Source: Oleomonas cavernae (GTDB lineage Bacteria > Pseudomonadota > Alphaproteobacteria > Zavarziniales > Zavarziniaceae). From it: a DNA stretch of 64,000 nt. Position 1 is the first letter of the stretch; every line of letters begins with the position of its first letter. Shown here piece by piece: positions 12,878 to 34,427 of the stretch. The translations under genes were made by a program, and so were the position numbers. The DNA is taken from positions 3,814,909 through 3,878,908 of the forward strand of contig NZ_QYUK01000011.1 in assembly GCF_003590945.1 (NCBI RefSeq), written 5' to 3'. The notes below the pieces were generated by a model, which had not been told where the DNA came from, made no database searches, and saw only the letters and a list, made by a program, of their open reading frames with translations.

Positions 12878-13693
12878 TCACCCGGCCTTGGCATCGCCAG
12901 CAAAGGCAGCGCGAACCGAGCCCAGGCCGGCGATCGTCGCCTCGATGACACTGCCCCAGGCGACGGGGACCATGGGACCGAGCGCGCCCGACAGCACGGT
13001 ATCGCCGGCCAGCAGGGGACGGCCGTGCCGTGCCATGGTCCGGGCCAGCCACAGGGTGGCGGCCAGCGGGTGGCCCAGGCAGGCCATGCCGGCGCCGACC
13101 GAGACCATCTGCCCGGCCCGTTCCATCACCATGCCTGCCTGCCGCAGGTCCAACCCGTCGAGCTTGCGCGGCGTGTTGCCCAGGACATAGAGCCCGGAGG
13201 AGGCGTTGTCGGCGACGGTATCGAGGAAACCGATCTTCCAGTCGGCGATGCGCGAATCGACCACCTCGATGGCCGGCAGGGCAAAGTCGACCGCCCGCAA
13301 CACATCGGCGATGGTGAGTCGCGGCTCGGTCAGGTCGCGGCCCAGGACGAAGGCGATCTCCGCCTCGGCCTTGGGCTGGATCAGGCGGTCGCGCCCGATC
13401 TCCCAGCCGTCGGGCACCGCCATGTCGTCGAACAGGATGCCGTAGTCGGGCTGATCGACGCCGAGCTGCTTTTGCACGGCGAGCGAGGTCAGGCCGATCT
13501 TGCGGCCCACGATGCGCCGGCCGGCCTCGACCCAGCGCCTGGTATTGATGTCCTGGACCTCATAGGCCTGATCGGCCGTGCCGCCGTCGAGCTGGCCGGC
13601 GATCGGGGGCACGGTCGTGCCCAGGCGATGGGCCTCGAACAGGCTGTCGGCCACCTGCCTTGTGGTGCTGGGGGTCATGTCGGGTCTCGTCAA
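12878..13693 (-). CDS. 2-hydroxypenta-2,4-dienoate (2-oxopent-4-enoate) hydratase
   Basis: Hydrates 2-hydroxypenta-2,4-dienoate to 4-hydroxy-2-oxovalerate in meta-cleavage pathways (BphH/XylJ/CmtF family). 271 residues, the usual family length; conserved blocks visible are [48 protein letters not shown] and the ALGPMVPV region near the C-terminus. Its ATG overlaps the hydrolase stop codon by 4 nt, so it is translated in series with it as the last gene of the dioxygenase operon. The usual next enzymes (4-hydroxy-2-oxovalerate aldolase, acetaldehyde dehydrogenase) are not in the window. Confidence 0.9.
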
Positions 13694-14511
13694 TCGGCCA
13701 GGAAATCGCCGACCAGGCGATTGAAGCGGGCGGCATGCTCGATCTGGGCCCAGTGGCCGCAGCGCCCGAAGACATGCAGTTGCGAGCGCGACAGCAAGTG
13801 GTGAAGCCGCAGCGAGACGTCGAGCGGCACCACCAGGTCATCACGGCCGTGGACGATCAGCGTGTCGTGGCCTACCTGGGCGATATCGGCGGGGTCGCTG
13901 CCCAGGGCATCGAGCCAGGGCTGATGGGGCCGCGGGAACATGGCGGCAAAGGATTCCTGGAAGCCGGGCCGGATACTGGCCTGGTAGCGCAGTTCGGCCA
14001 GTTCGTCGGTCACCAGGCTGCGGTCGTAGGCGAAGATATCGAGCAGGCCGCGCATGGCTTCCAGCGACGGCTGATAGCCCCAGACCGCCGCCAGGCCGTC
14101 GGTCACCGGGAAGGTCAGGCCGGCGCTGCCCATCAGCACCAGCTTGCCGACCCGGTCGGGATACTGGATGGCGAAGGCGAGCGCGATCGCACCGCCGAAC
14201 GAGTTGCCGACGATGTCGACCTTGGCGAGGTCCAGCGTGTCGATCAGGTCCAGCAACTGCCGGATCCAGGTCGCGCGGGAATAGACGATGCCGTTCGGCC
14301 GGTCGGTATAGCCAAAGCCCACCATGTCGGGCGCCAGCACGCGGGCGCGCTTTGCCAGGTCCGGCATCACGAGGCGCCAGTTGGCCCAGCCGGTGACGCC
14401 GGGGCCCGACCCATGGATCAGGACCACGGGATTGCCCTGCCCCAGGTCATGGCAATTGGTGGCGAAGGCGCCGGTCTGGATGCTGCGCGCGATTTCCGGT
14501 GTGTTGATCAT
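13690..14511 (-). CDS. meta-cleavage product (C-C bond) hydrolase, alpha/beta-hydrolase fold
   Basis: Splits the extradiol ring-fission product into 2-hydroxypenta-2,4-dienoate and a carboxylic acid (isobutyrate if the substrate is the p-cumate product). 273 residues with the BphD/TodF/CmtE pattern: [13 protein letters not shown] oxyanion region, nucleophile elbow GNSFGG (Ser), Asp in [10 protein letters not shown] and His in [13 protein letters not shown] at 14511 follows GGAGGAAA. It overlaps the downstream hydratase by 4 nt. A 200-bp gap with a dispersed palindromic repeat separates it from the extradiol dioxygenase upstream. Acyl-chain specificity is inferred from the CymR-like regulator and neighbouring genes. 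Confidence 0.9.
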
Positions 14512-14543
14512 GGTCGGTTTCCTCCAATGGTTAGGTTACTTAA

Positions 14544-14654
14544 GTCGTCATGCCCGGCCTTGTGCCGGGCATCCACGTCGGGACGGTGCGCAGCCGTTGA
14601 CGGCATAGGCAGCTTGCCGACGTGGATGGCCGGGACAAGCCCGGCCATGACGAC
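14544..14654. repeat. dispersed palindromic (REP/BIME-like) element, type A
   Basis: Long inverted repeat: outer arms GTCGTCATGCCCGGC and GCCGGCCATGACGAC type sequence at 14544-14572 and 14621-14654, each itself a small hairpin. The same element occurs at 54797-54903, where the central 40 bp is present in inverted orientation. Confidence 0.7.
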
Positions 14655-14725
14655 CTGGAAAAATGCCCAGACAGAAACACAACCTCTGATGTCTCAAGTA
14701 TCGGACAGTCACAGGCGAAGACCGA

Positions 14726-15598
14726 TCAGGTGCCGCGGATCAGCCCGCCGGGGCGGGCGCCCCACATGCACAGGCTGGAGGGTTCGAAGCTGAACAGGCG
14801 GGGCCGGTGGCCGGCCTCATCCGCGATCTCGTTCACGCCGCAGGAATATTCGAAGACCATGCCGTCAGGCCCGCGGAAATAGACGAAGTTGGCACCCGAG
14901 GTGGGGTGCCGGCCGGGCCCGAAGACGATCGGCACGCGCTTCTCGCGCAGCAGGTAGAAGGCGCGCAGGACATCGTCCGGCGTCTCGACCTGGTGGTTGA
15001 TGTGCTGCACGCCGGCGGTCTCGGCGCGGACAAGCGCGATCGTGTGATGGATCGCGTTGATCCGCATCAGGGGGATGTCACCGATGCGGTCGCTGACCCG
15101 GGCATTGCAGACCTGGGTCCAGAATCGCTCGTCGCGCTGCGGATCGGTCGAATTGAGGCCGATGTGGTTGAAGCCGGTGATGGCGGCGTCGCGGGTCGGG
15201 AAATAGCGCCGGCCGCGATGCTCAGGGCCTACCGCCAGCTCGATCCGGTTGCCGCTGGGATCATCGAAGCCGATGAAGGCGCGGACCTTGCGGGCCGCGG
15301 CCTGGGGCGCCGTCCCGGCGTGGACGCGGTGGCCCAGCGCCTCCAGGGCGGCGGCGGCCTGGTCGAGCTCGTCTTCGCACTCGACCTCGAAACCGGCCAC
15401 CTGGTAACCCGGCTCGTCATCGACATAACAAAGCGTGTGCGCCCGCGCATCGGAGCGCAGGTGCAAGGATTTTGCCCCCCGCTCGGCAACTTCGAGCCCC
15501 AGGCATGCGGTGGCGAAGGATTCCGCCAGGGCCAGGTCCCGGGTCCCTAAGCGCACATAGGCGATATCCTTGAGCCGGATCAGCGGTGTCGCACTCAT
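14726..15598 (-). CDS. type I extradiol ring-cleavage dioxygenase
   Basis: Cleaves a catechol-type ring next to the hydroxyls using Fe(II) and O2; here probably 2,3-dihydroxy-p-cumate or a similar catechol. 290 residues with two vicinal-oxygen-chelate domains. The C-terminal domain has all metal ligands: His145 (FNHIGL), His202 (HINHQVE) and Glu250 (MVFEYS), plus HHTIAL (His184/185) near the active site. ATG at 15598 overlaps the stop of the upstream paralogue by 4 nt. Same length as, and alignable without long gaps to, that paralogue, which lacks the ligands; the two could form a mixed complex. Substrate is inferred. Confidence 0.9.
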   Translation of the reverse strand: MSATPLIRLKDIAYVRLGTRDLALAESFATACLGLEVAERGAKSLHLRSDARAHTLCYVDDEPGYQVAGFEVECEDELDQAAAALEALGHRVHAGTAPQAAARKVRAFIGFDDPSGNRIELAVGPEHRGRRYFPTRDAAITGFNHIGLNSTDPQRDERFWTQVCNARVSDRIGDIPLMRINAIHHTIALVRAETAGVQHINHQVETPDDVLRAFYLLREKRVPIVFGPGRHPTSGANFVYFRGPDGMVFEYSCGVNEIADEAGHRPRLFSFEPSSLCMWGARPGGLIRGT

Positions 15599-16467
15599 GA
15601 TGCCGGCGCCTGAAGTTCAGGGACATCCGCGCAGGTGCTGCCCCAGGCGCAGAGCGAGGCCACGGTGCGCGGAAACTGGCGCGGGCGATGGGCGCGGCCG
15701 GCCAGGTCGTCGTCGCCGCCGACATAGGAGAACAGCGCGCCGTCCGGCCCCTGTAGGTGCAGGAAGGCCAGGTTCGACGCGGTTTCGCGGCCCGGCCCCT
15801 GGATGATGCGGACCTGGTGTTCCTGGGCGAAATAGCTGCTCTGCATGATGTTGTCGAGCGCCTCGACCTCGAAGGCGGCATAGAGCAGGCCAGCCCGCTC
15901 CGATGGGTAGAGGGCGATGCGGTGATGGCGGCTGTCGACCTGCAGATAGGTGATCTCGCCGACCCGGTCGCTGACCCGGGCACCCAGGCAGGCGGTCCAG
16001 AACATTGTATCGCGGACGATATCGCGGCTGCGCAGGCCGACGCCATGCAGGCCGACGATGCCGGCATCGCGCGCGGGGAAGTAGCGCCGCCCGCTGTGCA
16101 GGGGCCGCACCACCAGGTCGATGGCATTGCCCGAGCCGTCCCGGGCCTGCGCCATCGCCTGGACACCGTGGCGGCGGCAGGCCTCGGCACCCGCGCGGGC
16201 GGCGGTGAAACCCTGGGCGTTCAGCGCCTGTTCGGCCGTGGCCAGCGCGGCCTCGTCCACCAGTTCGATGCCCACGCTCCCGGCACCCTGCGCGGCCGGC
16301 AGGAACGAGAGGCTGCGCAGCCGCTGGTCGCAGCGGAAGGGAATTTCGCCCTCGACCTCGACGCCACGCTGCAGCCCCAGGATCTCGGCGGCGAAGCGCG
16401 CGCTGGCCGGCGGATCCTGGACGGCCAGGCGGACATAGCAGACCGCGGCGACGAGTGATTCAGCCAC
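15595..16467 (-). CDS. extradiol-dioxygenase-like protein lacking the metal site
   Basis: 290-residue paralogue of the adjacent extradiol dioxygenase. It keeps the two-domain fold, the GRRYFPARDAGI block and HHRIAL, but at the three iron-ligand positions it has Gly142 (LHGVGL, a neighbouring His is shifted by one), Phe199 (AAFEVE) and Ser247 (ALFSYV). It therefore should not bind iron in the usual way. Start is a GTG at 16467 overlapping the TetR stop by 8 nt; an in-frame upstream extension to 16767 lies entirely within the TetR gene and has no family similarity. The intact frame and equal length argue for a selected role, such as a structural or substrate-binding partner, but this is inference. 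Confidence 0.85.
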   Translation of the reverse strand: MAESLVAAVCYVRLAVQDPPASARFAAEILGLQRGVEVEGEIPFRCDQRLRSLSFLPAAQGAGSVGIELVDEAALATAEQALNAQGFTAARAGAEACRRHGVQAMAQARDGSGNAIDLVVRPLHSGRRYFPARDAGIVGLHGVGLRSRDIVRDTMFWTACLGARVSDRVGEITYLQVDSRHHRIALYPSERAGLLYAAFEVEALDNIMQSSYFAQEHQVRIIQGPGRETASNLAFLHLQGPDGALFSYVGGDDDLAGRAHRPRQFPRTVASLCAWGSTCADVPELQAPAS

Positions 16468-17149
16468 GCTTGGGGCCTCGCGACTTGCCTTGGGCGGCGA
16501 TATAGGCGCGGGCCATGTCGCGCAGCATGGCGAACTGCTGGTCGTCGCGCTTGGGGTCGTTGTCCCACAGCTTGCGCAGGGCGAGGCCGCGCACGACGCC
16601 CAGCATGATCGACAGCAGGCCCGGCGCCAGGTCCGCCGGAATGCCGGCCGCGGCCAGGGCCTGGCCCCAGGCCTGCTCGACCGGCAGGCGGGCGCCGCGG
16701 GCGATGTCCAGCACCTGCTCGCGCACGCTGGGCTCGGTCGCGGTCGACAGGACGATGTCCACGGCAACCAGGAAATGCCGGCTGAAGAAGAATTCGCGGG
16801 CGTCCTCGATCAGCAGGTCCAGGATATCGCGCGCGGGATCGACCGCGGCGGCCCGCTGGCGGCTGACCGCCAGGGCCTGGTCATAGACATGGGCCAGGGT
16901 GGCGACGATCAACTGGTCCTTGGTCGGGAAGTGATGCAGTTGCGCGCCGCGCGAAATGCCGGCGACGCGCGACACCTCGGCGGTGCGAAACCCGGCATAG
17001 CCATGGCTGCTCATGACCTTGGCGGCGGCATCCAGGATGCGCCGCTGCATGTCTTCGCTGCGCGCGGCCTGGGTCCGGCGTTCCACTTCGGGCCTCGACT
17101 TCGGGCGCCCGCGCCTGGCCGGCGGGATTAGGGTATCAGACGACGACAT
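16460..17149 (-). CDS. TetR-family regulator, CymR-like
   Basis: Transcriptional repressor of TetR type. 229 residues from the ATG at 17149 (AGGGG 8 nt upstream); the N-terminal helix-turn-helix region reads RRTQAARSEDMQ, GYAGFRTAEVSRVAGISRGAQ and HHFPTKDQLIVAT, which from memory closely follows CymR, the p-cumate-responsive repressor of Pseudomonas putida cym/cmt operons (RRTQAERA, GYAGFR, SRGAQ, HHFPTK). It is encoded inside the dioxygenase operon, overlapping the ferredoxin stop by 14 nt. The likely operator is the 9-bp inverted repeat at 21299-21330, at the head of the operon. Ligand p-cumate is inferred. Confidence 0.88.
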   Translation of the reverse strand: MSSSDTLIPPARRGRPKSRPEVERRTQAARSEDMQRRILDAAAKVMSSHGYAGFRTAEVSRVAGISRGAQLHHFPTKDQLIVATLAHVYDQALAVSRQRAAAVDPARDILDLLIEDAREFFFSRHFLVAVDIVLSTATEPSVREQVLDIARGARLPVEQAWGQALAAAGIPADLAPGLLSIMLGVVRGLALRKLWDNDPKRDDQQFAMLRDMARAYIAAQGKSRGPKRG

Positions 17150-17465
17150 GGACAACCCCTTCGATCAGTTCGACGGGATAGGTCTTCAGCGCCACCTCGC
17201 AGGGCATGCCCGTGGCCGCCCCGGTGGTGACGTCGAAGGTGCCGAAGTGCCAACTGCACTCGACGATTTTTCCCATCAGGCAGCCCTCCTCCGAGAGCGA
17301 GACCTCGCCATGCGTGCAGCGATCGGCTGTCGCATAGATGCGGCCGTCGACATTATAGAGGGCGATCGGCTGCCCGTCAGGCAGCGCTGCCTGACGGATT
17401 TCGCCTTCGGGAATGTCCGCCACGGGACATAGTTTCATCAGTTCAGGCATCTGCTTCAGGTCCAT
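17136..17465 (-). CDS. Rieske-type ferredoxin of ring-hydroxylating dioxygenase
   Basis: Small soluble electron carrier between the reductase and the terminal oxygenase. 109 residues with one Rieske [2Fe-2S] site: CTHGEVSLSEEG and CSWHFGTFD (C-x-H ... C-x2-H). ATG at 17465 overlaps the stop codon of the upstream dehydrogenase gene; a GTG one codon earlier is also possible. Encoded with the alpha, beta and reductase genes, so this is a three-component (class IIB/III-type) dioxygenase. Confidence 0.92.
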   Translation of the reverse strand: MDLKQMPELMKLCPVADIPEGEIRQAALPDGQPIALYNVDGRIYATADRCTHGEVSLSEEGCLMGKIVECSWHFGTFDVTTGAATGMPCEVALKTYPVELIEGVVHVVV

Positions 17466-18226
17466 CACAGCATGGTACTGCCGCCGTTGACGCTGATGAC
17501 CTGGCCGGTCACGAACGCCGCCTCCGACGACGCCAGATAGCCGACCATCGAGGCGACCTCGTCCATTTCGCCGGCCCGCCCCAGGGGAATGACGCTGAGG
17601 AATTTCTGGGCGAGGTCCGGCGCCTTCTCGACGAAGGCCGCCAGTTGGTGGGTGTTGACGGCGCAGGGCGCCACCGTGTTCACGGTGATGCCGTCGCGGG
17701 CGAATTCCCGCGCCAGGCCGGTGGTCATGGCATGCACCCCGCCCTTGGCGGCGTTATAGGCGGCATGGTCCCACAAGCCGTTGCGCACCGAATCCGCCCC
17801 CATGTTGACGACCCGGCCATAGCGCTGCCGCCGCATGACCGGCAGCGCGTACCACGAACACCAGATGGCGGTCCACAGGTTGCGGTCGATGGTGGCGCGC
17901 AGGGTGTCCGGCGTCTGTTCCAGGAAGGGGCGGATGATCCCGCCGCCGGCATTGTTCACCAGAATGTCGACCGTCCCGCAATCGGCCACCGCCCGGCCGA
18001 TCAGGGCACCGGCCGCCGCTTCCAGGGACAGGTCGCCGGCCTGCGTCACGGGCCGGTCGCCATGCTTGCCGGCCAATTGATCGGCCGCCGCCTCCAACGC
18101 ATCGCCGTCGAGATCCGCGATCACCAGGCGGGCGCCGTCGCGGGCCAGGCGGTCGGCGACGGCAAAGCCGATGCCCCGGGCCGCCCCCGTCACCACCGCG
18201 ATCCTGCCTTCAAGCGGCCTGGTCAT
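17465..18226 (-). CDS. SDR-family cis-dihydrodiol dehydrogenase
   Basis: Short-chain dehydrogenase of 253 residues, expected to oxidise the cis-dihydrodiol made by the dioxygenase to the catechol with NAD+. Visible: TGAARGIGFAVADRL cofactor motif, LVNNAGGG, and the YNAAKGG active site with Ser in the preceding NMGADS block; C-terminal VTGQVISVNGGSTML. It lies between the beta subunit (9 bp gap) and the ferredoxin (overlap). It belongs to the general SDR group rather than the BphB-specific branch, as in p-cumate and benzoate pathways, so the assignment rests partly on position. Confidence 0.82.
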   Translation of the reverse strand: MTRPLEGRIAVVTGAARGIGFAVADRLARDGARLVIADLDGDALEAAADQLAGKHGDRPVTQAGDLSLEAAAGALIGRAVADCGTVDILVNNAGGGIIRPFLEQTPDTLRATIDRNLWTAIWCSWYALPVMRRQRYGRVVNMGADSVRNGLWDHAAYNAAKGGVHAMTTGLAREFARDGITVNTVAPCAVNTHQLAAFVEKAPDLAQKFLSVIPLGRAGEMDEVASMVGYLASSEAAFVTGQVISVNGGSTML

Positions 18227-18235
18227 TTCCGCCCC

Positions 18236-18739
18236 TCACAGAATGATGCTGACGCGGCCCTGGGGCCGCAGGCCATCGCTGGCCAGCAGGCAGCGCTTCT
18301 CGCGAATCCGCAGCCCCTCGCCTTCCCACACCAGCTGATGCAGGTTGGTGCCGAAGAAGACATCGGTCTGGCCTTCCTTGGTGCGATAGGTGATGAAGGC
18401 CGAGCTGACCTGCCATTCGTCGCCCGCGCGCTCGCGGATCCGCACGTTGCTGACCAGGTGGCGCAGCTTGGAGCGCGGGAATTCGGCGTGGGCCGTGCGT
18501 TTCATCAGGCGTTTCACCCGCTCACCCAGGCGAAAGCGGTCGTCGGCGATATAGAACAGGTTGTTCTCGGGCGAGGCGTCGGGCGCCACGTCGGTCGACG
18601 GGACGTAGTAATGCGCATCGTCGCTGAACAGTGCCAGCCATTCCGGCAGGCGCCATTCGTCGATCAGGTCGGCCTCGAGGAAGAGGAAATCCTCGACCTG
18701 GGCACGGGTCGGGTTGGGCAGGGCGAGATCGATGGTCAT
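18236..18739 (-). CDS. ring-hydroxylating dioxygenase beta subunit
   Basis: Structural small subunit of the alpha3-beta3 oxygenase. 167 residues from the ATG at 18739, which overlaps the alpha-subunit stop by 4 nt. Typical blocks: [33 protein letters not shown] near the N-terminus and a cone-shaped NTF2-like fold; [19 protein letters not shown] in the middle. No metal ligands, as expected for this subunit. Confidence 0.9.
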
Positions 18740-20007
18740 GCCGCGGCCTCGAAAATGCGCTGGTTCCACTGGGCCCAGAAGGCGCGCATCTGCGCCTCGT
18801 CGTCATAGGACGGGGTCTCGCGGCCCATGCCCTTGGACATGTCGTTCCAGCCGACCTCGGCCATGTTGGCATAGCCGCGCTGGCACTGTTCCAGGGCCTC
18901 GACATCGTCGGGCGTGGCAAAGCCGCCGGGGCCCAGGAATTCGAGGAAGTTGAACAGGCGGTATTCCCGCGCCCACTTGCTTTCCTCGGCCGGGGCCAGG
19001 GCCCAGGCGTTGATCAGCATGAAATCGGGCGCGGTGGGATAGAAGGTGCGCACGGTGATCGCCATGATGTCGTTGATCACCAGGTTGGGGAAGATCACCA
19101 GGTTGCGGTTACGGGTGGCGATGCGATCGGCCCGTTCCTTGCCGTGACGCTCGACCAGGCGCTCGTAGATCGCGTCGATCTCCACCTTGCCCTGGTCGCC
19201 CCACATGGGGATCCACTGGGCTACCGGCCGGCCCCAGGGCGCGCTGTATTCGACCACGGCATGGCCGTTGCCCAGGTCGTGGCTGACGCCCTTCAGCGCC
19301 ACATTGGCCAGGCCGCCATTGGTGTTCTTGAGATAGTCGAGATAGGTCGCATGGTTGGTGGCGGCGTGGTAGCCGTCGAAGCTGTTTTCGGCCAGCAGCT
19401 TCCAGTTGGCGCGGATCGAATATTCCTGGGTGCCGCCGACGATGGCCATGCCCAGGTCGGACTGGTCGGCCACGATATCGATATATTCCTTGGCACCGGC
19501 CAGGTAATCGGACAGGGACACGGCATCGGCATCGAAGCAGACGAAGGCAAAGCCGCGATAGGTGTCGAAGCGCGGCACCGGCTGCAGGCCCGAGGTGCTG
19601 CGCGCCTTGAAATCCGCCGGATAGGCTTCCTCGTCCGGCAGGTTGCGCAGGTTGCCGTCCAGGCCGAAGATCCAGCCGTGATAGAAGCACTGGAACGACT
19701 TGGCATTGCCTGCGCGCTCGCGGCAGACCTTGGCGCCCCGGTGGGCACAGGTGTTCAGCAGGGCGCGGAGCTCGCCCTTGGGATTGCGGGCGAAGATGAT
19801 GTGACGCCCGCCGACCTGGCGGGTGACGAAGTCGCCGGGCTTGGCCAGTTCCGACGTGTGGCCCAGGTAGAGCCAGCAGCGGCCGAAAATCTTCTCGCGC
19901 TCCGCCTCCAGGATCGCCGGATCGACGAAGGTGCGCCGGGCGACATTGAAGACGTGCCGTTCCTTGTCGATCACCAGCATCGGATCGCCATGGCCGTTGG
20001 GTGTCAT
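18736..20007 (-). CDS. ring-hydroxylating dioxygenase alpha subunit
   Basis: Catalytic subunit that adds both atoms of O2 to an aromatic ring. 423 residues from the ATG at 20007, preceded by GGAGGGAGG at good spacing; an ATG at 20028 overlapping the reductase stop would add 7 residues. The N-terminal Rieske domain has CAHRGAKVC and [12 protein letters not shown]; the mononuclear iron site shows [12 protein letters not shown] (Asn/Asp and two His) with the third ligand probably an Asp in [12 protein letters not shown]. Context (CymR-like regulator, methyl-oxidation genes) suggests p-cumate or a related alkylbenzoate as substrate; the sequence alone does not prove it. Confidence 0.92.
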
Positions 20008-20024
20008 GGAACCTCCCTCCATTT

Positions 20025-21239
20025 TCATTTGGGTGCCGCGGCGCGGCGCAGGTCGAATGCGGGGTTTTCCAGGTCGGCGCGGGCCGGGCGCTGCCGGCCG
20101 GCGACGATGCGGCGCAGGGCCGCCATGTCGCGTGCCGCGTTGACGGTGACGGCCCCGACCACCTCGCCCGCGCGCAGGGCGATCAGGGTGAAGCGGCCTG
20201 CTTCCACGTCGCCGCGCAGCACGAGATCGTCGGCGACAGCGTCACCCAGGACCTGAAGATTGACGTCGTACTGATCGGACCAGAACCAGGGCGGATCGCC
20301 ATAGGGGCTGTCCTGCCCCGCCATGGTGCGCGCCGCGGCGATCGCCTGGTTCTGCGCATTCGCCCAGGTCTCGATCCGGGTCCAGCGGTCGTGACAGCGG
20401 CTCCATTGCAGGGCGACATCGCCGGCCGCGAAAATATGCGGCAGTTCGGTGCGGCCGTGAGCATCGACCTTGATACCCTGGCCGCCGGCAAGGCCCAGCC
20501 GTTCGGCCAGGCCGACGACCGGATCGACCCCGACGCCGACGACGATCAGGTCGGCCGGCACCACCCGGCCGTCGGCCAGGACGACGCCCTGCGCATTCGC
20601 CCCGACCGGCACCTGGCCGAAATGGAACTCGACCCCGGCCTGCTCGTGGCGGCGGCGCAGAAAGCCGGCGACCACCTCGGGCAGGGCCCGGGCCAGCAGG
20701 CGGGGTGCGGCCTCGATGACCGTGGCCCTTGCCCCTTGGGCGACCGCGGCGGCGGCCGCCTCCAGCCCGATCACCCCGCCGCCCACGGCAACGATCCGGG
20801 CCCCGGGCACGAAGCCGCGGCGCAGGGCGCAGGCATCGTCGATCGTGCGCAGGTAATGCACCGGGATCGGCCCCGCCTCCAGCGCCGGCAGCCGGCGCGG
20901 CACCGTGCCGGTGGCAAACATCAGCTTGTCGAAGCCGAACACCCGGCCATCTTTGGCAGCGACATGGCCGCGCTCGATATCGCCGTCGGCGATTTCCGCC
21001 CCGGTGACCAGGTCGACGCCTAAGGTTGCCCAATCCGGCGCACTGCGGACAAAGGCCGGCACGGCATCGGTCTTGAGCAGCATTTCCTTGGACAGTTGCG
21101 GCCGCTCATAGGGCGGATGCGCCTCCGCCCCGATCAGGGTGACGGCGCCGGCATGGCCCGCGGCACGCAGGGCCTCGGCCGCGCGGGCGCCGGCTTGGCC
21201 TGCGCCGATGATGACGATGCTGGGACCAGCCCTAGTCAC
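20025..21239 (-). CDS. ferredoxin reductase of ring-hydroxylating dioxygenase (BphA4 type)
   Basis: FAD-dependent NAD(P)H:ferredoxin oxidoreductase feeding the Rieske ferredoxin. 404 residues with a first dinucleotide motif [37 protein letters not shown], the second motif [13 protein letters not shown] and [12 protein letters not shown]. The start is a GTG at 21239, preceded by GGAAGGGCGGAA. First gene of the minus-strand catabolic operon; the 9-bp inverted repeat at 21299-21330 lies about 60-90 bp upstream, the position expected for an operator. Confidence 0.9.
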
Positions 21240-21298
21240 GATTCCGCCCTTCCCTGGTCGACGCTCAACTGCTGCCGCGCAGCGGCGTCGTTCCCATT

Positions 21299-21330
21299 TA
21301 TTTACAAACAGTCCAACCGGCTTGTAAATA
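21299..21330. promoter_or_regulatory. TetR/CymR-type operator
   Basis: Perfect 9-bp inverted repeat TATTTACAA (21299-21307) and TTGTAAATA (21322-21330) with a 14-bp spacer, in the divergent promoter region between the dioxygenase operon and the amidohydrolase gene. The left half contains ACAAACAG, followed by CAA and GG at similar spacing to the known P. putida cumate operator (recalled, not searched). Likely bound by the CymR-like regulator encoded at 16460-17149. Confidence 0.65.
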
Positions 21331-21391
21331 GAGAAAATAAAGGTAACACTCCGGCGACAACAATCGGCGTCGCCAGGGAGGACGCTTGCCC

Positions 21392-22384
21392 GTGAACATC
21401 GACCTGCATGCCCATTTCGTGCCCCAGGCCTTTCCCGACGGGCGCGGGCGCTCGGCCCTGTGGCCGGCGATCGAGCACCGGCCGGACGGCCGGGCCGCGA
21501 TCGTCATCGGCGGCCGGCCCTTTCGCGTCCTCGACGCCTGCAACTGGGATAGTGCCGCGCGGCTGGCCGACCTGGCGGCGGAAGGCGTGGACCGGCAAGT
21601 CATCTCCCCCATGCCGGAACTGCTCTCCCACTGGTTCGACGCGGCGGAGGCCGACCTGCTGTCCCGCCACATGAACGAGGCCCTTGCGGCACTCGTCGCC
21701 ACCCAGCCTGACCGCTACCTCGGCCTGGGCATGGTTCCGGTGCAGGATCCCGAACTGGCCGCGCGGCGCCTGGAAGAGGTGAAGACGCTGGGGCTGCGCG
21801 GGGTCGAAATCGGCTCGCACATCAATGGCCTGCCGCTGGGCGACGCCTCGCTCGACCCGTTCTATGCGGCGGCCCAGGCCCTGGACCTCGCCATCATGGT
21901 GCACCCGCTGCACCCGGTCGGGCGGGAGCGCCTGGGCGGCAATCCGGCCCTGGCCGCGGCGGCTGCCTTCCCGCTGGACACGGCCCTGGCCGGCGCCTCG
22001 CTGCTGGCGGCCGGCATTCCCGACAAGTATCCCCGCCTGCGCATCCTGCTGTGCCATGGCGGCGGGGCCTTGCCGTGGATCCTGCCGCGGCTGGACCAGG
22101 TCTGGTCGCTGGGCGGCAGCCTGGGCGCGCTGTTCCCGCGCAAGCCCAGCGAAATGGCCAGGAAATTCTACTACGACACGGTGCTCTACGATGCGCCGTC
22201 GCTGCGCTTCCTGGCGCAGACGGTGGGCATCGACCGGATCGCGGTCGGCTCCGACTATCCTTTTGTCATCCAGCAGGGCCGGCCGGTGGACTTCGCCCTG
22301 GGCGCCCTGCACTGCCCCGGCGAGCAATTGGCGCGGAACGCCCTCGATTTCCTCGGGCTTGGCCATCAGTGCCCGGACCAATAG
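21392..22384 (+). CDS. ACMSD-family amidohydrolase/decarboxylase
   Basis: Metal-dependent amidohydrolase_2 family protein (about 330 residues) of the group that includes aminocarboxymuconate-semialdehyde decarboxylase and 5-carboxyvanillate decarboxylase. Metal-binding residues: DLHAHF near the N-terminus, MVHPLHP in the middle, CHGGGALPW and GSDYPF towards the C-terminus. It is divergent from the dioxygenase operon and shares its operator, so it likely acts in the same pathway; decarboxylation of the 3-carboxy ring-fission product before the hydrolase step would fit. Start is a GTG at 21392 nine bases after GGGAGGA; TTG at 21386 is an alternative. Its end overlaps the convergent small-subunit gene by 19 bp. 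Confidence 0.85.
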   Translation: MNIDLHAHFVPQAFPDGRGRSALWPAIEHRPDGRAAIVIGGRPFRVLDACNWDSAARLADLAAEGVDRQVISPMPELLSHWFDAAEADLLSRHMNEALAALVATQPDRYLGLGMVPVQDPELAARRLEEVKTLGLRGVEIGSHINGLPLGDASLDPFYAAAQALDLAIMVHPLHPVGRERLGGNPALAAAAAFPLDTALAGASLLAAGIPDKYPRLRILLCHGGGALPWILPRLDQVWSLGGSLGALFPRKPSEMARKFYYDTVLYDAPSLRFLAQTVGIDRIAVGSDYPFVIQQGRPVDFALGALHCPGEQLARNALDFLGLGHQCPDQ

Positions 22385-22638
22385 GCCGCCAGGATGAGCG
22401 TGGTTACAACGCCGATCCAGGCCTCGAACACGATCCGCCAGGGCAGAACCCGGCGCCCCAGTTCCATGAAGTGGACGAACACCAGGCGGATCTTCAGCGC
22501 CGCGATCAGCACCACGGCGGTGGCGGCATAGGGCGCGGCAAGGCTTCCCATATCCTCGGCCACCAGCCAGCTCGACAGCGTCGCCCCCAGCAGGATCGCC
22601 CAGATGCCGATGGCCGGGGGCAGGGTCAGGCCACGCAT
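22366..22638 (-). CDS. NorF/cytochrome-oxidase subunit IV-like small membrane protein (cassette 1)
   Basis: 90-residue protein with three hydrophobic segments. Between the second and third is ALKIRLVFVHFMELGRRVLPWR, a version of the K-x-R-x-(I/V)-x2-x-FM(E/D)-x-R motif shared by all three small proteins of this type in the window and typical of prokaryotic subunit IV/NorF proteins. ATG at 22638 overlaps the stop of the upstream subunit III-like gene. No catalytic role is expected; it should pair with that subunit III-like protein. Confidence 0.82.
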   Translation of the reverse strand: MRGLTLPPAIGIWAILLGATLSSWLVAEDMGSLAAPYAATAVVLIAALKIRLVFVHFMELGRRVLPWRIVFEAWIGVVTTLILAAYWSGH

Positions 22639-23234
22639 CACGCCCTCAACAGATAGAGCAGCGGGAACAGCATCAGCCACAGCAGATCGACCATGTGCCA
22701 ATAGCACGCCGTGCTTTCGACCCAGATGAGATTGCCGGGCCCCGCCGGCCGGCCCCGGACCTTGAAGAAGACCAGGGCAAGGACCGCCATGCCGACCAGG
22801 TAGTGCAGGAAGTGAACCCCGGTGAAGACGAAATAATACATGAAGAAATCATTGGTCAGCATCGAGATGCCGCCCCGAATCTTCTCCACATATTCCGTCA
22901 TCTTCAGGACGCCGAAGCCCGATCCGGCGGCGAAGGACAGCACAAGGTAGCGCTGCAACCGGCCCGCCCGGCCCTCGCGAGCGGCCTCGACCGCGCCGAC
23001 CATGAACCAGGAACTGGTCAGCAGGAAGAAGGTGTTCAGCAGGCCGGTCCAGGGATCGAGCAGCAGCCTGGACTGTTCGAATAGGGTAACCGCCTGCGCC
23101 CGTTCGAAGATGAAGATCAGGAAGAACAGGCCGAACATGAAGATGTCGGCGCTCAGGAACATCCAGATCCCGGGATCGCCCGGGGGCGCCGCCGCCCCTT
23201 TTTGATGAGGCGACGGCGCGGCGTGGCTGGTCAT
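22638..23234 (-). CDS. NorE/cytochrome-oxidase subunit III-like protein (cassette 1)
   Basis: 198-residue five-helix membrane protein of the CoxC/NorE family. Conserved blocks: PGDPGIWMFLSADIFMFG, LLNTFFLLTSSWFMV, NDFFMYYFVFTGVHFLHYLVGM and CYWHMVDLLWLMLFPLLYLLR. No gene for a heme-copper oxidase subunit I or II or for NorB/NorC is in the window, so it is not part of a visible oxidase operon. ATG at 23234 overlaps the upstream gene's stop by 4 nt. Family assignment is firm; function here is unknown. Confidence 0.88.
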   Translation of the reverse strand: MTSHAAPSPHQKGAAAPPGDPGIWMFLSADIFMFGLFFLIFIFERAQAVTLFEQSRLLLDPWTGLLNTFFLLTSSWFMVGAVEAAREGRAGRLQRYLVLSFAAGSGFGVLKMTEYVEKIRGGISMLTNDFFMYYFVFTGVHFLHYLVGMAVLALVFFKVRGRPAGPGNLIWVESTACYWHMVDLLWLMLFPLLYLLRA

Positions 23235-23992
23235 TCGGCGGCTTGCGGCAGCACCACCCCGGCGGGCGGCCGGCCGGCCGCGTGCCGTTCCAGTTTCTCG
23301 GCTTCCAGGCGCTTGATGGCCGCCAGGATGTAGAAGGTCAAGGTCGGGCACCAGACGAACCAGACCGAGAATTCGATCCAGAAGTTGAGCAGGCCGGCCC
23401 GCTCGAACGGCCCGCTCTTGAAGAACGGCATCAGGCATTCGGCCGCGAAGCTGACGCCGACCCAGATGCCGTACCAGGCGAGCCAGCGCGGGATGAGCGG
23501 GTGCTCCCGCTTGTCCGACAGGAAGGCGACGCCCAGCGCCAGCATCTGCAGGGTGGTGACCGAGTAACCAAGGTCGATCAGCAGCCACGACCAGTCGTAG
23601 AGCAGTTGCAGCACCGGATCGCTCAGCGCTTCGGGGCGATAGGCCCCGGCCAGCCAGCCCGAACAGGAGACCAGGATCGGCACCACCGTCAGGCCGGCGC
23701 CCCACAGCGCCAGGGTCGAGAGGATGTTGCTCTCGCCCTCGACCCGTTCCACCACCTTGGCGATGGCCAGGCCCCAGACCATGTAGAGCACGGCAAAGGT
23801 CATGGCGATGACCATGCCGAGGCGCACGGTATTGGCGTTTTCGCGGAAGTAATGCCCGATGTCTTCCGCGGGCAAGGCGGCCGAAAACGGCGGAAGGTTG
23901 AACCCCATCAGCCCCCAGAAGCCGATGAACACCGCCATGAACAGCGGCCCCGCCCAGGCACAAAGCCGCCAGTACTTGAATTCGTCCAGCAT
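23231..23992 (-). CDS. conserved multi-pass membrane protein of the NorE/NorF-like cassette (cassette 1)
   Basis: 253 residues with about seven hydrophobic segments and no recognised domain. Two paralogues in the window (48614-49360 and 57935-58678) share FRPEA-like, PRW(L/V/M)...W and the signature FKSGPF/FKTGPFAxDG(L/M)xSFW. No Cys pairs, heme-binding CxxCH or Fe-S motif is visible. It is always the first gene of the cassette, directly upstream of and overlapping the subunit III-like gene, so it is probably a third subunit of the same membrane complex. Confidence 0.75.
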   Translation of the reverse strand: MLDEFKYWRLCAWAGPLFMAVFIGFWGLMGFNLPPFSAALPAEDIGHYFRENANTVRLGMVIAMTFAVLYMVWGLAIAKVVERVEGESNILSTLALWGAGLTVVPILVSCSGWLAGAYRPEALSDPVLQLLYDWSWLLIDLGYSVTTLQMLALGVAFLSDKREHPLIPRWLAWYGIWVGVSFAAECLMPFFKSGPFERAGLLNFWIEFSVWFVWCPTLTFYILAAIKRLEAEKLERHAAGRPPAGVVLPQAAE

Positions 23993-24021
23993 TTCAGCCT
24001 CCCTTTGCCTGCCCGGCCCGA

Positions 24022-25173
24022 TCAGAGGATCAGCACCGGTTTGATCGCCGTGCCGTTCGTGGTCGCATCGAACGCCTCGTTGATCTGGTCGAACGAAAAT
24101 CGCGTGATCAGCCGGTCGAAGGGCAGCCGCCCGTCGAGATGGTACTGGACCAGTTGGGGAATGAAGACTTCCGGATCGCTGTCGCCCTCGACATAGGCCT
24201 TCACGCCCACGCCGCGCACCAGCATGGACAGGATGTTCGCCGGTAGGCTGGCGTCTGGCGGCGGCATGCCGACCAGGCCCAGCATGCCGTTGGGCAGCAG
24301 GGTTTCCAGCGCCGCGCCGATCACCGCCGGGATGCCCGTGGTATCCAGGGCATGGGATACCCCGCCGGGGCCGGCCTTCTTGACCGATGCCGTTACATCG
24401 GCGTCGCCGGTCGGATCGAGGGCGGCCGTCGCCCCCAACTCCAGCGCCAGGGCGCGCCGGCTCGGGTTTGGCTCGACGACGACGATCGCTGCGGCGCCGG
24501 CAATCTTCGCGGCCATGACCGCGCTGAGGCCGACGGCGCCCGCCCCGAAAATCGCCACGGAATCGCCCTGGTGGACCTTCAGCGAATTGAGGATCGAGCC
24601 GGCGCCGGTCTGGATGCCGCAGCCCAGCGGCCCCAGGAGTTCGATCGGCACCGCCTTCGAGACCACGATCGTGTTCTGTTCGCGCGCGATCAGGTGGCTG
24701 GCGAACGAGGACTGGCCGAAGAAGCGGGCGTTGACTGCGTCACCCTTGCGCGACATCGGGGTGGAGCCGTCCGAGACCCGCACGCCGCCGAAGTTCTCGG
24801 CCATGAAATTATAGCAATAGGACGGTGTCGAGCGTGCGCAATTGGGGCAGACGCCGCAGGAATCGAAGGTCAGGACGACATGGTCGCCGGGCCTGACCCG
24901 GGTGACGCCCGCGCCGACGGCCTCGACCACGCCCGAGCCCTCGTGGCCCAGCACGATCGGCAGCGGCACGGGGAAATCCCCCCGGCAGACGACGTCGGTG
25001 TGGCAGACACCGACACCGGCGACTTTCACCAGAACCTCGTCCCGGCGCGGCTGCTGCAGTTGCACGTCCTCAACCACGAAACGGCCGCCTGGCTCGGACA
25101 ATATGGCCGCGCGGGCGGCAACAGCCGTCCGGCCGGCGCGCACGGGATCGAGCAGCGCATCCGCAATCGACAT
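24022..25173 (-). CDS. zinc-dependent aryl/primary alcohol dehydrogenase (MDR family, XylB-like)
   Basis: 383-residue medium-chain alcohol dehydrogenase. Catalytic zinc ligands Cys in GVCHTD, His-Glu in LGHEGSG and Cys in GPLGCGIQTG; structural zinc Cys cluster CGVCPNC...C; NAD(H)-binding GAGAVGLSAV. It resembles benzyl-alcohol and perillyl-type alcohol dehydrogenases. ATG at 25173 follows GAGGGAGGAATAAG. In this setting it would oxidise the alcohol made by the membrane monooxygenase, feeding the aldehyde dehydrogenase at 1.4 kb. Upstream of cassette 1 by 30 bp on the same strand, so the cassette may be co-transcribed with it. Confidence 0.88.
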   Translation of the reverse strand: MSIADALLDPVRAGRTAVAARAAILSEPGGRFVVEDVQLQQPRRDEVLVKVAGVGVCHTDVVCRGDFPVPLPIVLGHEGSGVVEAVGAGVTRVRPGDHVVLTFDSCGVCPNCARSTPSYCYNFMAENFGGVRVSDGSTPMSRKGDAVNARFFGQSSFASHLIAREQNTIVVSKAVPIELLGPLGCGIQTGAGSILNSLKVHQGDSVAIFGAGAVGLSAVMAAKIAGAAAIVVVEPNPSRRALALELGATAALDPTGDADVTASVKKAGPGGVSHALDTTGIPAVIGAALETLLPNGMLGLVGMPPPDASLPANILSMLVRGVGVKAYVEGDSDPEVFIPQLVQYHLDGRLPFDRLITRFSFDQINEAFDATTNGTAIKPVLIL

Positions 25174-25348
25174 CTTATTCCTCCCTCGCGGCAGGAACCC
25201 ACCGCGGATGTTGTGTGTCTGCGCTCATCTTCTGCCGCTGGTTGGCCGTGTCGCCCGACGAAAGTCGGGCCGGCGGCGTGGAAAGTGCACAGATCGGGTC
25301 AATCGGGGTGCCGACGGCGTCGATGTTGCTGCTGTATCGCAGGAGGTC

Positions 25349-25510
25349 ATGATATATTTCAGAAAAACGAATACTGGCCGGAACAGCACGCCGAAGAGCG
25401 ATGCGACCCCGACCGGGGGAAGCGAAATGGATAACAAGGCGAAGATGAAGGTCGAGGCGACAGGCCGGCGTGCGGCGGCGCAGCATAACGGGCTGGTCCC
25501 GTCGCCATGA
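25349..25510 (+). CDS. possible short upstream ORF coupled to the LuxR-type regulator
   Basis: A 53-codon frame from the ATG at 25349 (AGGAGG only 2 nt away), or 27 codons from the ATG at 25428 (GGGGGAAG upstream), ends with TGA that overlaps the regulator's ATG as ATGA. The product is basic and low in hydrophobic residues, with no known family. It may be a translated leader that couples translation to the regulator. It lies in the otherwise empty 333-bp region between the alcohol dehydrogenase and the regulator. Confidence 0.3.
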   Translation: MIYFRKTNTGRNSTPKSDATPTGGSEMDNKAKMKVEATGRRAAAQHNGLVPSP

Positions 25511-28194
25511 CCCAGAAGATTCCGGCCCCGGGCGCGCAGATCGATGATCATTCCTTCATCGGCGCCGGCCGGTTCGAGCCGCCGAGCTATGCCTTCTCAC
25601 CTGTTACAACCCGTGCCCTGCGCTCGTTCACCGATGTCGGCCCGCTGTCCAAGGTAACGACCCTCATCGCGCCGCCCGGCTATGGCAAGACGGTGCTGAT
25701 GACCCAGCTCTACAAGCTGGCGCTCGATCGCGGGGCGGTGTGTTTCTGGATCGGCATCGACGACCGGGCATCCGACCTGCCGATGCTGCTGGCGGCGATG
25801 GAGCACGCGATCGGCCTCGACCAGATCGGCGACGTGACGCCGATCATTCGCGATCCCCGCGGCAACATTCCCGACCGCATCGATCGCCTGGTCGCCCTGC
25901 TGAACCGGCAGGCCGGCGAGACCGTCTTCTTCCTGGACAACCTCAACGGCTGCACCGATCCGGCCCTGGCCCTGCTGCTCGATGCCCTGGTGTTCCGCAC
26001 CTCGCCGTCGTTCCGGCTGATCATGAGCTCGACCATCCCGATCCCCTTCGATATCGCAAGGGCGCGCATCGAGATGAAGTTGCGACGGATCACGGCGGCG
26101 GAACTGGGCTTCGACCAGCATGCCACCGCGGCGATTCTCGAATCCGCCGGCTTGACCGCGCTGACCGAGGACACGATCGCCGCCGTCGTCGAGAAGACCG
26201 AGGGCTGGCCGGCCGCGATCCGCCTAGTGCAGTTGATCATGACCGGCGAAAGCGACCCGGAGCAGGGGCTGGAAAGCTTCTCGGGCGCGGACAGCGACTT
26301 TGCCGCCATGCTGTCGCGGCGGCTGATGGCCACCTTCGATGCCGACCTGGTGCGCTTCCTCTACGATATCGCCGAACTGCGGGGCTTTTCCGCCGAACTG
26401 GCCGCCGCCGCCACCGGCGACGCCCGCGCCGGGGAATGGATCCGTTATCTGGTCGAGCGCAACGTCCTGATCGTGCCGCTCGACCGCAGCCGGACCTGGT
26501 ATCGCTTCCACGGCCTGTTCCGGCAATTCCTGCTGGCCGAGGCCGAACGGGTCCAGGCGCCGGACCGGCGGCTGGCCGTGATCGCCGCCGCGGCGGCGTG
26601 GCTGGACCAGCGGGGCGACCTCGCCTATGCGCTCGAACTGGCCCTGACCGCGCCTGTTATTTCGCAGGTTTCATCGATTCTCGAGCGCATCGCCCACCCG
26701 ATGGTGCGCGACCGGGGCGAGTTGGCGACCTTCGTCGGCTGTGTCGAGCGGGCCCGGCTGCTGGGTGTCGACCTGGGGGTGGATACCCTCCTCTGGTACA
26801 CCTGGGCGCTGGTCTTCACCCGGCAGTACGAGGAAGCGGTCGTCGCCCTGAACCTCCTGGCCGAGCGGATCGAGCGGGAGATTCCGGGCGCGCCCCGCAA
26901 CCATGCCCTGTGGGGCAGGCATCGCATGATGCAGATCATGGTGAACTTCCATCTCGACCGCCTCACCGCCGTCCGCGAGGAGAGCCCAGGCTGGCTGCAC
27001 GACTTTCCCGATGCCAACCCGTTCGAATATGCCGCCATCGCCGGCGGCTTCGGCATCGCCTCGGCCGTCGTTCACGACTTTCCCGCGGCGCGCGACGCCC
27101 TGCGCCTGTCGAATGCCTCGATCATCCGTTCGAGAAGCGACTATGGCCGGGCCTGGGTTGCCACTGTCGGCGTTACCATCGACCTGCTGCAGGGCGATCC
27201 GGCCGAGGCGGACCGGCAACTTCGGGACGTCGAACAGCGCGTGCGCACCAACTTAGGGGATGGTGCCAGCATCGTCTCGGTCCTGACCCTGGCCGAGGCC
27301 CGAGTGGCCGCGGACCTGGGGCGCTTTTCCGATGCGATGAGCCTTGTTACCTTCGGCATGGAGCGCGGGGTCAACGACGGCATCCTCGACACCACCTGGT
27401 TCGGCATCGACGTCGCCGTCGAATCGGCCAGCCTGGGTACCGGCCCCTTTACCCTGGCGGAACTCTATTCCTTCGCCCATCGCTATTCGCGGCGCCTGCC
27501 GCTGCTGCTGGACCTGGCCCTGATCCGCCAATGGCTGCGGGAAGGCAAGACGGCCGAGGCCCTGGAACGCGCGGAGGCCGCCGGCATCTGGGTGAAGCCC
27601 GGGTCTTTTCAGGCGCTGGCGCCGATGGTGACACCGATGGAGCAATCGGCCGCCTGCCTGGCCGGTATCGACCTGCTGACCGCGACCGGCAACCTCAAGG
27701 ACGCCGGCGCCCTGCTCGACGAGGAGACGAAGCGGGCGACGGAGACCGGCCGGCGCCGCGAACAGGTGGAGCTGCACCTGATGCAGGCCGCGATCAAGAT
27801 CCGCTCCGACAACCAGGATGCCGCGGTCAGGGCGCTGGCCCGCGCCATCACCATCGCCGCGCGCCGGCAACTGGTCCGGCCCTTTGTCCAGCAGCGCGGC
27901 CTCGTCACCCAGTTGATCGACGCCACGCCGATGAAGCGTTTCGGCCTGACCCTGGATACCGATGTCACGTTCTTCAACACGATCTGCACCATGCTGGGCG
28001 CCTCGCCCCAGGTGCTGAAGCCCAAGGTCGACGAGGACGAGGCCTTCCCGGTCGACCCGCCCACACCGCGGGAAATCGAGCTGCTGCAACTGCTCGATTC
28101 AGGCCTCGACAATACCCAGATCGCCGCCCGTCTCTCGCTCTCGGTGCCGACCGTGAAGTGGCACCTCTACAATATCTATTCCAAGCTGGGGTGA
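25507..28194 (+). CDS. LuxR-family ATP-dependent transcriptional regulator (LAL/MalT type), C-terminus frameshifted
   Basis: Large regulator of about 900 residues: N-terminal ATPase with Walker A APPGYGKT (about residue 57) and Walker B-like TVFFLDNL, a middle TPR-like region, and a C-terminal LuxR helix-turn-helix beginning PPTPREIELLQLLDSGLDNTQIAARLSLSVPTVKWHLYNIYSKLG. The frame stops there, inside the last helix. The next frame continues naturally with VKNRAGALARARTLRVLHR to a stop at 28248-28250, so one G has been lost from the run at 28188-28191. Divergent from the alcohol dehydrogenase operon, which it may control. The DNA-recognition helix itself is intact, so partial function is possible. 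Confidence 0.88.
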   Translation: MTQKIPAPGAQIDDHSFIGAGRFEPPSYAFSPVTTRALRSFTDVGPLSKVTTLIAPPGYGKTVLMTQLYKLALDRGAVCFWIGIDDRASDLPMLLAAMEHAIGLDQIGDVTPIIRDPRGNIPDRIDRLVALLNRQAGETVFFLDNLNGCTDPALALLLDALVFRTSPSFRLIMSSTIPIPFDIARARIEMKLRRITAAELGFDQHATAAILESAGLTALTEDTIAAVVEKTEGWPAAIRLVQLIMTGESDPEQGLESFSGADSDFAAMLSRRLMATFDADLVRFLYDIAELRGFSAELAAAATGDARAGEWIRYLVERNVLIVPLDRSRTWYRFHGLFRQFLLAEAERVQAPDRRLAVIAAAAAWLDQRGDLAYALELALTAPVISQVSSILERIAHPMVRDRGELATFVGCVERARLLGVDLGVDTLLWYTWALVFTRQYEEAVVALNLLAERIEREIPGAPRNHALWGRHRMMQIMVNFHLDRLTAVREESPGWLHDFPDANPFEYAAIAGGFGIASAVVHDFPAARDALRLSNASIIRSRSDYGRAWVATVGVTIDLLQGDPAEADRQLRDVEQRVRTNLGDGASIVSVLTLAEARVAADLGRFSDAMSLVTFGMERGVNDGILDTTWFGIDVAVESASLGTGPFTLAELYSFAHRYSRRLPLLLDLALIRQWLREGKTAEALERAEAAGIWVKPGSFQALAPMVTPMEQSAACLAGIDLLTATGNLKDAGALLDEETKRATETGRRREQVELHLMQAAIKIRSDNQDAAVRALARAITIAARRQLVRPFVQQRGLVTQLIDATPMKRFGLTLDTDVTFFNTICTMLGASPQVLKPKVDEDEAFPVDPPTPREIELLQLLDSGLDNTQIAARLSLSVPTVKWHLYNIYSKLG

Positions 28195-28264
28195 AGAACC
28201 GCGCCGGCGCCCTGGCCCGGGCCCGCACCCTGCGCGTGCTCCACCGCTGAACCGGACAAAAAGG

Positions 28265-28296
28265 AAGCGCCGGCGACATCGCTGTCGCCGGCGCTT
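28265..28296. terminator. bidirectional intrinsic terminator
   Basis: Perfect 14-bp stem AAGCGCCGGCGACA (28265-28278) and TGTCGCCGGCGCTT (28283-28296) with a 4-nt loop, T-rich on the right and A5 (28258-28262) on the left. It lies between the convergent regulator and DUF1329 genes and can end both transcripts. Confidence 0.85.
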
Positions 28297-28309
28297 TTGT
28301 TCCGGCAGA

Positions 28310-29674: not shown

Positions 29675-29688
29675 GCCCTCCCCCAATC

Positions 29689-34235: not shown

Positions 34236-34288
34236 CGTTTCCTCAGGCGTTATGTTTCCTGCCGCCGGTGGCGGCTCCATCCCCACAC

Positions 34289-34404
34289 CGTCATTCCGGC
34301 GAAGGCCGGAATCCATTGTCGTGCGAGGGCTAGGACACCTCCCAGTGTGGCGCCGCAGGTTACGCCTGCCCCCACGATGGATTCCGGCCTTCGCCGGAAT
34401 GACG
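34289..34404. repeat. dispersed palindromic (REP/BIME-like) element, type B
   Basis: Inverted arms CGTCATTCCGGCGAAGG type (34289-34316) and the reverse complement (34377-34404), each a small hairpin around GGCGAAGGCC. Same arms occur at 52014-52093 and, slightly diverged, at 47654-47747. It lies between two minus-strand genes, not at an operon end. Confidence 0.75.
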
Positions 34405-34427
34405 GCAAAGGGTGAGGCTGCCGTCCC

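Follow-up and report, generated by a model that had tools for sequence, protein, structure and literature searches.

A candidate OpaD-type decarboxylase of the amidohydrolase superfamily in a p-cumate-type gene cluster of Oleomonas cavernae

Organization of the locus

The window, a 64,000-nucleotide stretch of the Oleomonas cavernae genome (contig NZ_QYUK01000011.1), contains an ACMSD-like amidohydrolase gene that lies back to back with a minus-strand operon running from 21239 down to 12878. Positions 12878-22384 unite genes for a cumate-type dioxygenase, a diol dehydrogenase, an extradiol dioxygenase, the proposed decarboxylase, a hydrolase and a hydratase, which is the p-cumate (cmt/psb) set:

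21392..22384, plus strand: amidohydrolase resembling ACMSD, a proposed OpaD-type decarboxylase acting on the 3-carboxy ring-fission product (from Pfam, PDB, identities and tree)
21304..21325, no strand: operator-like palindrome ACAAACAGTCCAACCGGCTTGT, in the gap that separates the decarboxylase gene from the divergent dioxygenase operon
20025..21239, minus strand: ferredoxin reductase of the dioxygenase (Pyr_redox_2 and Reductase_C)
18736..20028, minus strand: alpha subunit of a p-cumate-type ring-hydroxylating dioxygenase (Rieske and Ring_hydroxyl_A; 64% identity to CmtAb of LB400, 31% to an OpaAa-like protein)
18236..18769, minus strand: dioxygenase beta subunit (Ring_hydroxyl_B, 6e-31)
17465..18226, minus strand: SDR, proposed cis-dihydrodiol dehydrogenase (adh_short_C2, 1.5e-55)
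17136..17468, minus strand: Rieske ferredoxin (Rieske, 1.8e-18)
16460..17155, minus strand: CymR-like TetR regulator (TetR_N, 5.5e-12; 39% to CymR of LB400)
15595..16467, minus strand: VOC2, extradiol paralogue lacking the iron ligands (Glyoxalase, 1.3e-11; ligand columns G, Y and S), its start being uncertain as the open frame extends to 16767
14726..15598, minus strand: VOC1, a type I extradiol dioxygenase proposed to cleave the ring (Glyoxalase, 6.4e-24; H145, H199 and E250; 52% to the OpaC-like protein of locus L157)
13690..14511, minus strand: alpha/beta hydrolase, proposed to act on the decarboxylated product (Abhydrolase_1, 5.9e-35; 59% to an OpaH-like protein, 26% to CmtE of LB400)
12878..13693, minus strand: 2-hydroxypenta-2,4-dienoate hydratase (PRK11342, 2.8e-94, below the cut-off of that model; 54% to the LB400 hydratase)

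The gene at 21392-22384 (+) starts with GTG and runs uninterrupted through 330 codons to its stop, encoding a protein of 330 amino acids, and its G+C content per codon position (0.76/0.47/0.89) is coding-like. A TTG lies upstream in the same frame at 21386; despite it, the originally assigned start at 21392 fits, as homologues begin at the same 'xIDxHxH' point. Amidohydro_2 (PF04909, 1.4e-36) was the sole Pfam domain matched, an NCBIfam search returned no family above its cut-off and no usable name, and among solved structures ACMSD was best (5.3e-55 to 5.7e-42), with 5.3e-55 for the mammalian-type structure and about 1e-43 for the bacterial one. This intact frame, with its Amidohydro_2 domain and its match to ACMSD structures at 5e-55, bears out the initial annotation of an ACMSD-family amidohydrolase. 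No close copies were found elsewhere in the genome, where the next two matches scored 33 and 27 bits, and scanning viral contigs with the protein gave three pattern matches and no relatives.

Residues H6, H8, R45, H171, H222, R233 and D288 of the window protein align with H9, H11, R51, H177, H228, R239 and D294 of Pseudomonas fluorescens ACMSD. We take R51 and R239 to be the substrate arginines of ACMSD, with R45 and R233 as their counterparts here. Counterparts of the zinc ligands H9, H11, H177 and D294, as these are named in PMC6362003, and of H228 are all present in the window protein.

The alpha subunit of the operon resembles CmtAb, but VOC1 (31% identical to CmtC of LB400), the hydrolase and the decarboxylase resemble proteins of L157, an opa-like Pseudomonas cluster, so that the front half of the window cluster is of p-cumate type and its back half of opa type. 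From its H-H-E ligands and its resemblance to the OpaC-like protein, VOC1 is predicted to be the extradiol partner for 2,3-dihydroxybenzoates expected of an OpaD-type enzyme. VOC2 is a conserved, apparently iron-free partner adjoining VOC1: across the surveyed clusters none of the 44 VOC2-labelled rows shows any of the three iron ligands (two rows are gapped there), and H-H-E is kept in 44 of 48 VOC1-labelled and all 43 CmtC-labelled rows. The psb genes of Rhodopseudomonas palustris no. 7, a p-cumate system, likewise include two extradiol-type genes and a cumate-type dioxygenase, as in the window cluster. OpaC is reported to be 51% identical to PsbC2, which is named in the same source (PMC6362003).

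Genes for acetaldehyde dehydrogenase and aldolase are absent from the operon; a good aldolase match (72% to LB400) is present on another contig of the genome, so that the lower pathway is probably completed elsewhere. No aldehyde dehydrogenase was found among the 15 frames scanned with Pfam from 9841 to 25173, and one is encoded in the window at 1391-2869, outside the operon. On the other side of the decarboxylase gene, positions 24022-35570 encode a zinc alcohol dehydrogenase, a LuxR/MalT-type regulator, DUF1329 and DUF1302 proteins, a second alcohol dehydrogenase and acyl-CoA genes, possibly for uptake and an upper pathway; relatives (60-77% identity) of the genes from 24022 to 32875 adjoin the decarboxylase gene in one or other of the same-genus loci L018 and L019. 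Two further window proteins, at 5504-7384 (626 aa, DUF1302) and 55118-56926 (602 aa), are both related to a single gene of L018 (at 52% and 68%) located near the decarboxylase gene there, and this double match suggests duplication or rearrangement.

The palindrome at 21304-21325 resembles the CymR operator quoted in PMC5224996, with an inner spacing four bases shorter than in the LB400 form, and with up to two mismatches it occurs once in the window versus 0 times in 100 shuffles. It is found in the same place in L018 and L019, ahead of either the reductase or the alpha gene in L072, L075, L076 and L080, and in a longer CymR-type form in L087 (LB400) and L089; it is common to clusters of either decarboxylase type, and most of the 90 loci scanned are without it. 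The position of the palindrome in the divergent gap and its retention in L018 and L019 make joint regulation of the decarboxylase gene and the operon likely in this genus.

Decarboxylase types in p-cumate-type clusters

The initial annotation had proposed that the ACMSD-type protein may replace CmtD, described there as having a different fold. Pfam agrees, as LB400 CmtD (L087:13915-14649; 244 aa, the length also given in PMC5224996) matches Aldolase_II only (3.2e-18) and the window protein Amidohydro_2 only. CmtD of Pseudomonas putida F1 and Paraburkholderia xenovorans LB400 and DhbB of Pseudomonas reinekei MT1 share with the window protein the same proposed reaction step and the same place in the pathway, yet they are class II aldolases (LB400 CmtD by Pfam, DhbB according to PMC6362003). 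In the window genome, an assembly 96% complete, no CmtD orthologue was found, the best match scoring 25 bits. This genome holds three class II aldolases, which we rejected as CmtD candidates, LB400 CmtD matching one of them at 25 bits only; tblastn of the window-cluster proteins against the 20-kb surroundings of these aldolases gave only SDR-like matches and one alpha-like match of 201 residues.

Co-occurrence in cmt-like clusters, which the initial annotation had suggested as a check, was surveyed by searching named genomes with 11 aligned alpha subunits; this gave 442 relatives, and the best 80 loci were kept. They were chosen by the dioxygenase alpha subunit alone, and up to 10 kb per side was read, some contigs ending sooner. 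Among these best 80 of 442, an ACMSD-like gene is present in 52, a CmtD-like gene in 17, both in none and neither within the stretch read in 11; independent placement would give both in about 11 of 80 (52 x 17 / 80), the loci themselves not being independent (25 of the 52 ACMSD-type loci are from Bradyrhizobium). The ACMSD type occurs in 15 named genera and the CmtD type in 13, counts that leave out unclassified and family-level rows, and Bradyrhizobium alone is common to both. The window and loci L004, L005 and L018-L024 are all of the ACMSD type; L005 and L018-L024 were found via the decarboxylase and L004 via the decarboxylase and alpha subunit, and these loci were excluded from the survey evidence, as was L025 (35% identity; alpha 29%) from the cluster count.

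The ACMSD-type loci carry a window-type extradiol gene in 37 cases and a CmtC-type gene in 13, with no extradiol called in the other two; the 17 CmtD-type loci have the CmtC type in 16 cases and the window type in one. In L100, L105 and L107 an ACMSD-like gene accompanies CmtC-like and CmtE-like genes, which LB400 pairs with CmtD. On two Rhodobacterales plasmids the decarboxylase gene directly adjoins that of the hydratase. In L004 (Pseudosulfitobacter plasmid P4), genes at 18268-23833 for an acyl-CoA dehydrogenase, a biotin carboxylase, a crotonase and a carboxyl transferase, a set as in leucine/isovalerate breakdown, adjoin the same dioxygenase operon, and the acid released in that pathway may be isovalerate-like, not isobutyrate.

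Whole-genome searches covered the surveyed strains as well. For the 11 loci with neither gene, four genomes (G385-G388) hold an ACMSD-like protein elsewhere (267-376 bits) and no CmtD at 1e-10, five (G389, G390 and G393-G395) hold a CmtD-like protein (190-248 bits; in three of the five with a stop in the matched stretch), and two (G391 and G392) hold neither type. Weaker amidohydrolases occur beside the CmtD-like protein in G390 (82 bits) and G395 (158 and 67 bits), and those of 82 and 158 bits, when placed in the tree, fall outside the clade described below. The window protein has matches at 1e-15 or better in seven of the 17 CmtD-type genomes; the best two (197 and 194 bits) have the 3-hydroxyanthranilate (3-HAA)-type motif and lie outside the clade, and the rest reach 112 bits or less. 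Among the 48 ACMSD-type genomes searched, CmtD-like stretches occur in two: the first matches at 50% and contains an in-frame TGA, and the second is partial (55%).

Relationship to OpaD and ACMSD

In Pseudomonas sp. PTH10, OpaD decarboxylates 3-carboxy-2-hydroxymuconate-6-semialdehyde (CHMS) to HMS, as shown with OpaD extract, for which an HMS band at 375 nm is reported, and deletion mutants showed that the opa genes are required for o-phthalate use (PMC6362003). The same CHMS step is carried out in P. reinekei MT1 by the class II aldolase DhbB, a contrast drawn in PMC6362003, and an ACMSD-like enzyme in place of a class II aldolase was therefore already known in a 2,3-dihydroxybenzoate pathway. 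Like OpaD, the window protein is a member of the amidohydrolase superfamily (PF04909 is also matched by the OpaD-like protein of L157) with the same metal ligands and in the same clade, has similar partners (the extradiol and hydrolase identities to the L157 proteins listed above) and stands in for a class II aldolase. It is 46% identical to the OpaD-like protein of L157, a comparison with this orthologue and not with the PTH10 sequence itself; OpaD is accompanied by an o-phthalate 2,3-dioxygenase and the window protein by one of the p-cumate type, and the OpaD product (HMS) is an aldehyde. ACMSD and NbaD (EC 4.1.1.45), the latter 30% identical to OpaD (PMC6362003), share with the window protein the family, the metal ligands and both arginines, and remove a carboxyl group from a muconate semialdehyde, but identity is about 32% and the PMPELL segment differs.

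In a tree of 86 amidohydrolases, a 70-row clade (SH-aLRT 99) comprises all 62 members from cumate-type clusters, including that of the window, two OpaD-like proteins and six ungrouped rows (L006, L158, L159, L165, L166 and L167); outside it lie the 3-HAA-type ACMSDs of L160 and L161 and, beside them, L162, L163 and L025. The window protein groups with OpaD, apart from ACMSD. This quick tree and that of the alpha subunits carry SH-aLRT support and no bootstrap, and orthologues selected on gene order and length take the place of the PTH10 OpaD sequence: in the genus of G404, 15 of 298 genomes matched at 1e-35, the OpaD-like rows were picked from the four best matches, and the surroundings of these and of two weaker ones were read. 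Protein lengths at L157 equal those published for OpaB/C/D/H/J/K (269/285/327/276/345/312; PMC6362003).

All 70 clade rows retain the seven catalytic positions and likewise P73, M74, E76 and L78, the last four being replaced by other letters in the five 3-HAA-side rows; the clade motif is PMPELL versus TPV[ML]F or VPV[ML]F in the 3-HAA types. The segment around E76 is a candidate for telling 2-hydroxy from 2-amino substrates. Some clade members have an adjoining extradiol-type gene with no cumate-type dioxygenase found nearby (L006:12001-12981 from a Paraburkholderia sp. D15 plasmid, L158 and L159; L006 also has a flavin reductase and an acyl-CoA dehydrogenase family gene), and they probably belong to further ring-fission pathways with the same enzyme type. 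Because the clade extends to these loci, membership leaves the substrate unfixed. Parsimony on the alpha tree, which has 90 rows, gives four changes of decarboxylase type, versus a mean of 15.6 in shuffles, and the well-supported branches alone force two changes.

Proposed role and its significance

What we observe of sequence family, residues, neighbours, co-occurrence and tree leads us to infer activity, substrate and step order, as it does shared regulation: the window protein is very probably a metal-dependent, OpaD-type decarboxylase of the 3-carboxy ring-fission product from a 4-substituted 2,3-dihydroxybenzoate, most likely 2,3-dihydroxy-p-cumate or another 4-alkyl analogue.

That the same chemistry serves a natural substrate other than p-cumate, such as another 4-substituted benzoate (e.g., 4-ethyl or 4-isobutyl) or plain 2,3-dihydroxybenzoate, is a serious possibility if not quite our expectation, and one compatible with the reading above, which names a step and not one substrate. 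OpaD acts on the unsubstituted product (PMC6362003), and a branched acid different from isobutyrate would fit the leucine-type acyl-CoA genes next to the operon of Pseudosulfitobacter; against this, the alpha subunit is far closer to CmtAb than to the OpaAa-like protein, and the presence of a hydrolase in the operon, with no aldehyde dehydrogenase in the 15 frames scanned, suits a ketone ring-fission product. Decarboxylation of the dihydroxybenzoate before ring cleavage, yielding a 3-alkylcatechol, is improbable: 2,3-dihydroxybenzoate and gamma-resorcylate decarboxylases do belong to the same superfamily (6e-13 and 1e-24), but these matches are far weaker than those to ACMSD, VOC1 is 52% identical to an OpaC-like enzyme and OpaC cleaves carboxylated 2,3-dihydroxybenzoate (PMC6362003), and the tree places the window protein with OpaD, an enzyme that acts on the already cleaved ring. 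Although the closest solved structures are ACMSD and the catalytic residues are all kept, it is most unlikely that the protein is a true ACMSD of a 3-hydroxyanthranilate (tryptophan or 2-nitrobenzoate) route present here by chance, since 3-hydroxyanthranilate dioxygenase (PF06052) has no match in the 96% complete window genome (G000), the same search being positive in three of three genomes with a 3-HAA-type ACMSD, and since the protein has the PMPELL motif, is 32% identical to the 3-HAA-type ACMSD of L160 against 46% to the OpaD-like protein, and is placed by the tree outside the 3-HAA-type rows.

In the OpaD-type pathway that we propose, the dioxygenase (reductase, alpha, beta and ferredoxin) would form a cis-2,3-dihydrodiol, the SDR would convert this to the 2,3-diol, and VOC1 would cleave the ring between carbons 3 and 4. 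The window amidohydrolase would then release CO2 from the 3-carboxyl, the alpha/beta hydrolase would split the decarboxylated product into 2-hydroxypenta-2,4-dienoate and a carboxylic acid, and the hydratase would act next, with the aldolase step performed by an enzyme encoded elsewhere in the genome. In ACMSD, attack of a metal-bound hydroxide on the diene beside the carboxylate is followed by loss of CO2 and restoration of the dienol; the carboxylates are held by a pair of arginines, one of which comes from the partner subunit. By analogy, H6, H8, H171 and D288 of the window enzyme would hold the metal, H222 would activate water, and R45 and R233 would bind the carboxylates.

The role in place of CmtD that the initial annotation had advanced is thus supported by co-occurrence, by the tree with OpaD-type proteins and by the lack of a CmtD orthologue, with the amendment that the closest characterised relative is OpaD and not ACMSD; its non-homologous replacement likewise stands, but is not new in kind, OpaD already filling this step in the sister 2,3-dihydroxybenzoate pathway (PMC6362003). 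The recurrence of this replacement across p-cumate-type clusters we did not find in print, our literature search, with subscription literature mostly outside its reach, having recognised no paper on an amidohydrolase in such a cluster. The two unrelated enzymes, amidohydrolase and class II aldolase, have probably been swapped several times within the p-cumate-type lineage, with dioxygenase, extradiol and even hydrolase types kept in places. As the amidohydrolase form is the commoner among the best 80 of 442 loci, the CmtD route of textbooks may be the rarer of the two.

Taken together, these results point to a candidate gene for the decarboxylation step in many clusters that otherwise seem incomplete or are annotated 'ACMSD' under tryptophan/NAD metabolism, with PMPELL as a simple annotation rule for the clade. 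They also provide a clean natural example of a single step at which one enzyme has repeatedly been replaced by a non-homologous one, L100, L105 and L107 differing from LB400 at the decarboxylase while the CmtC and CmtE types are kept.
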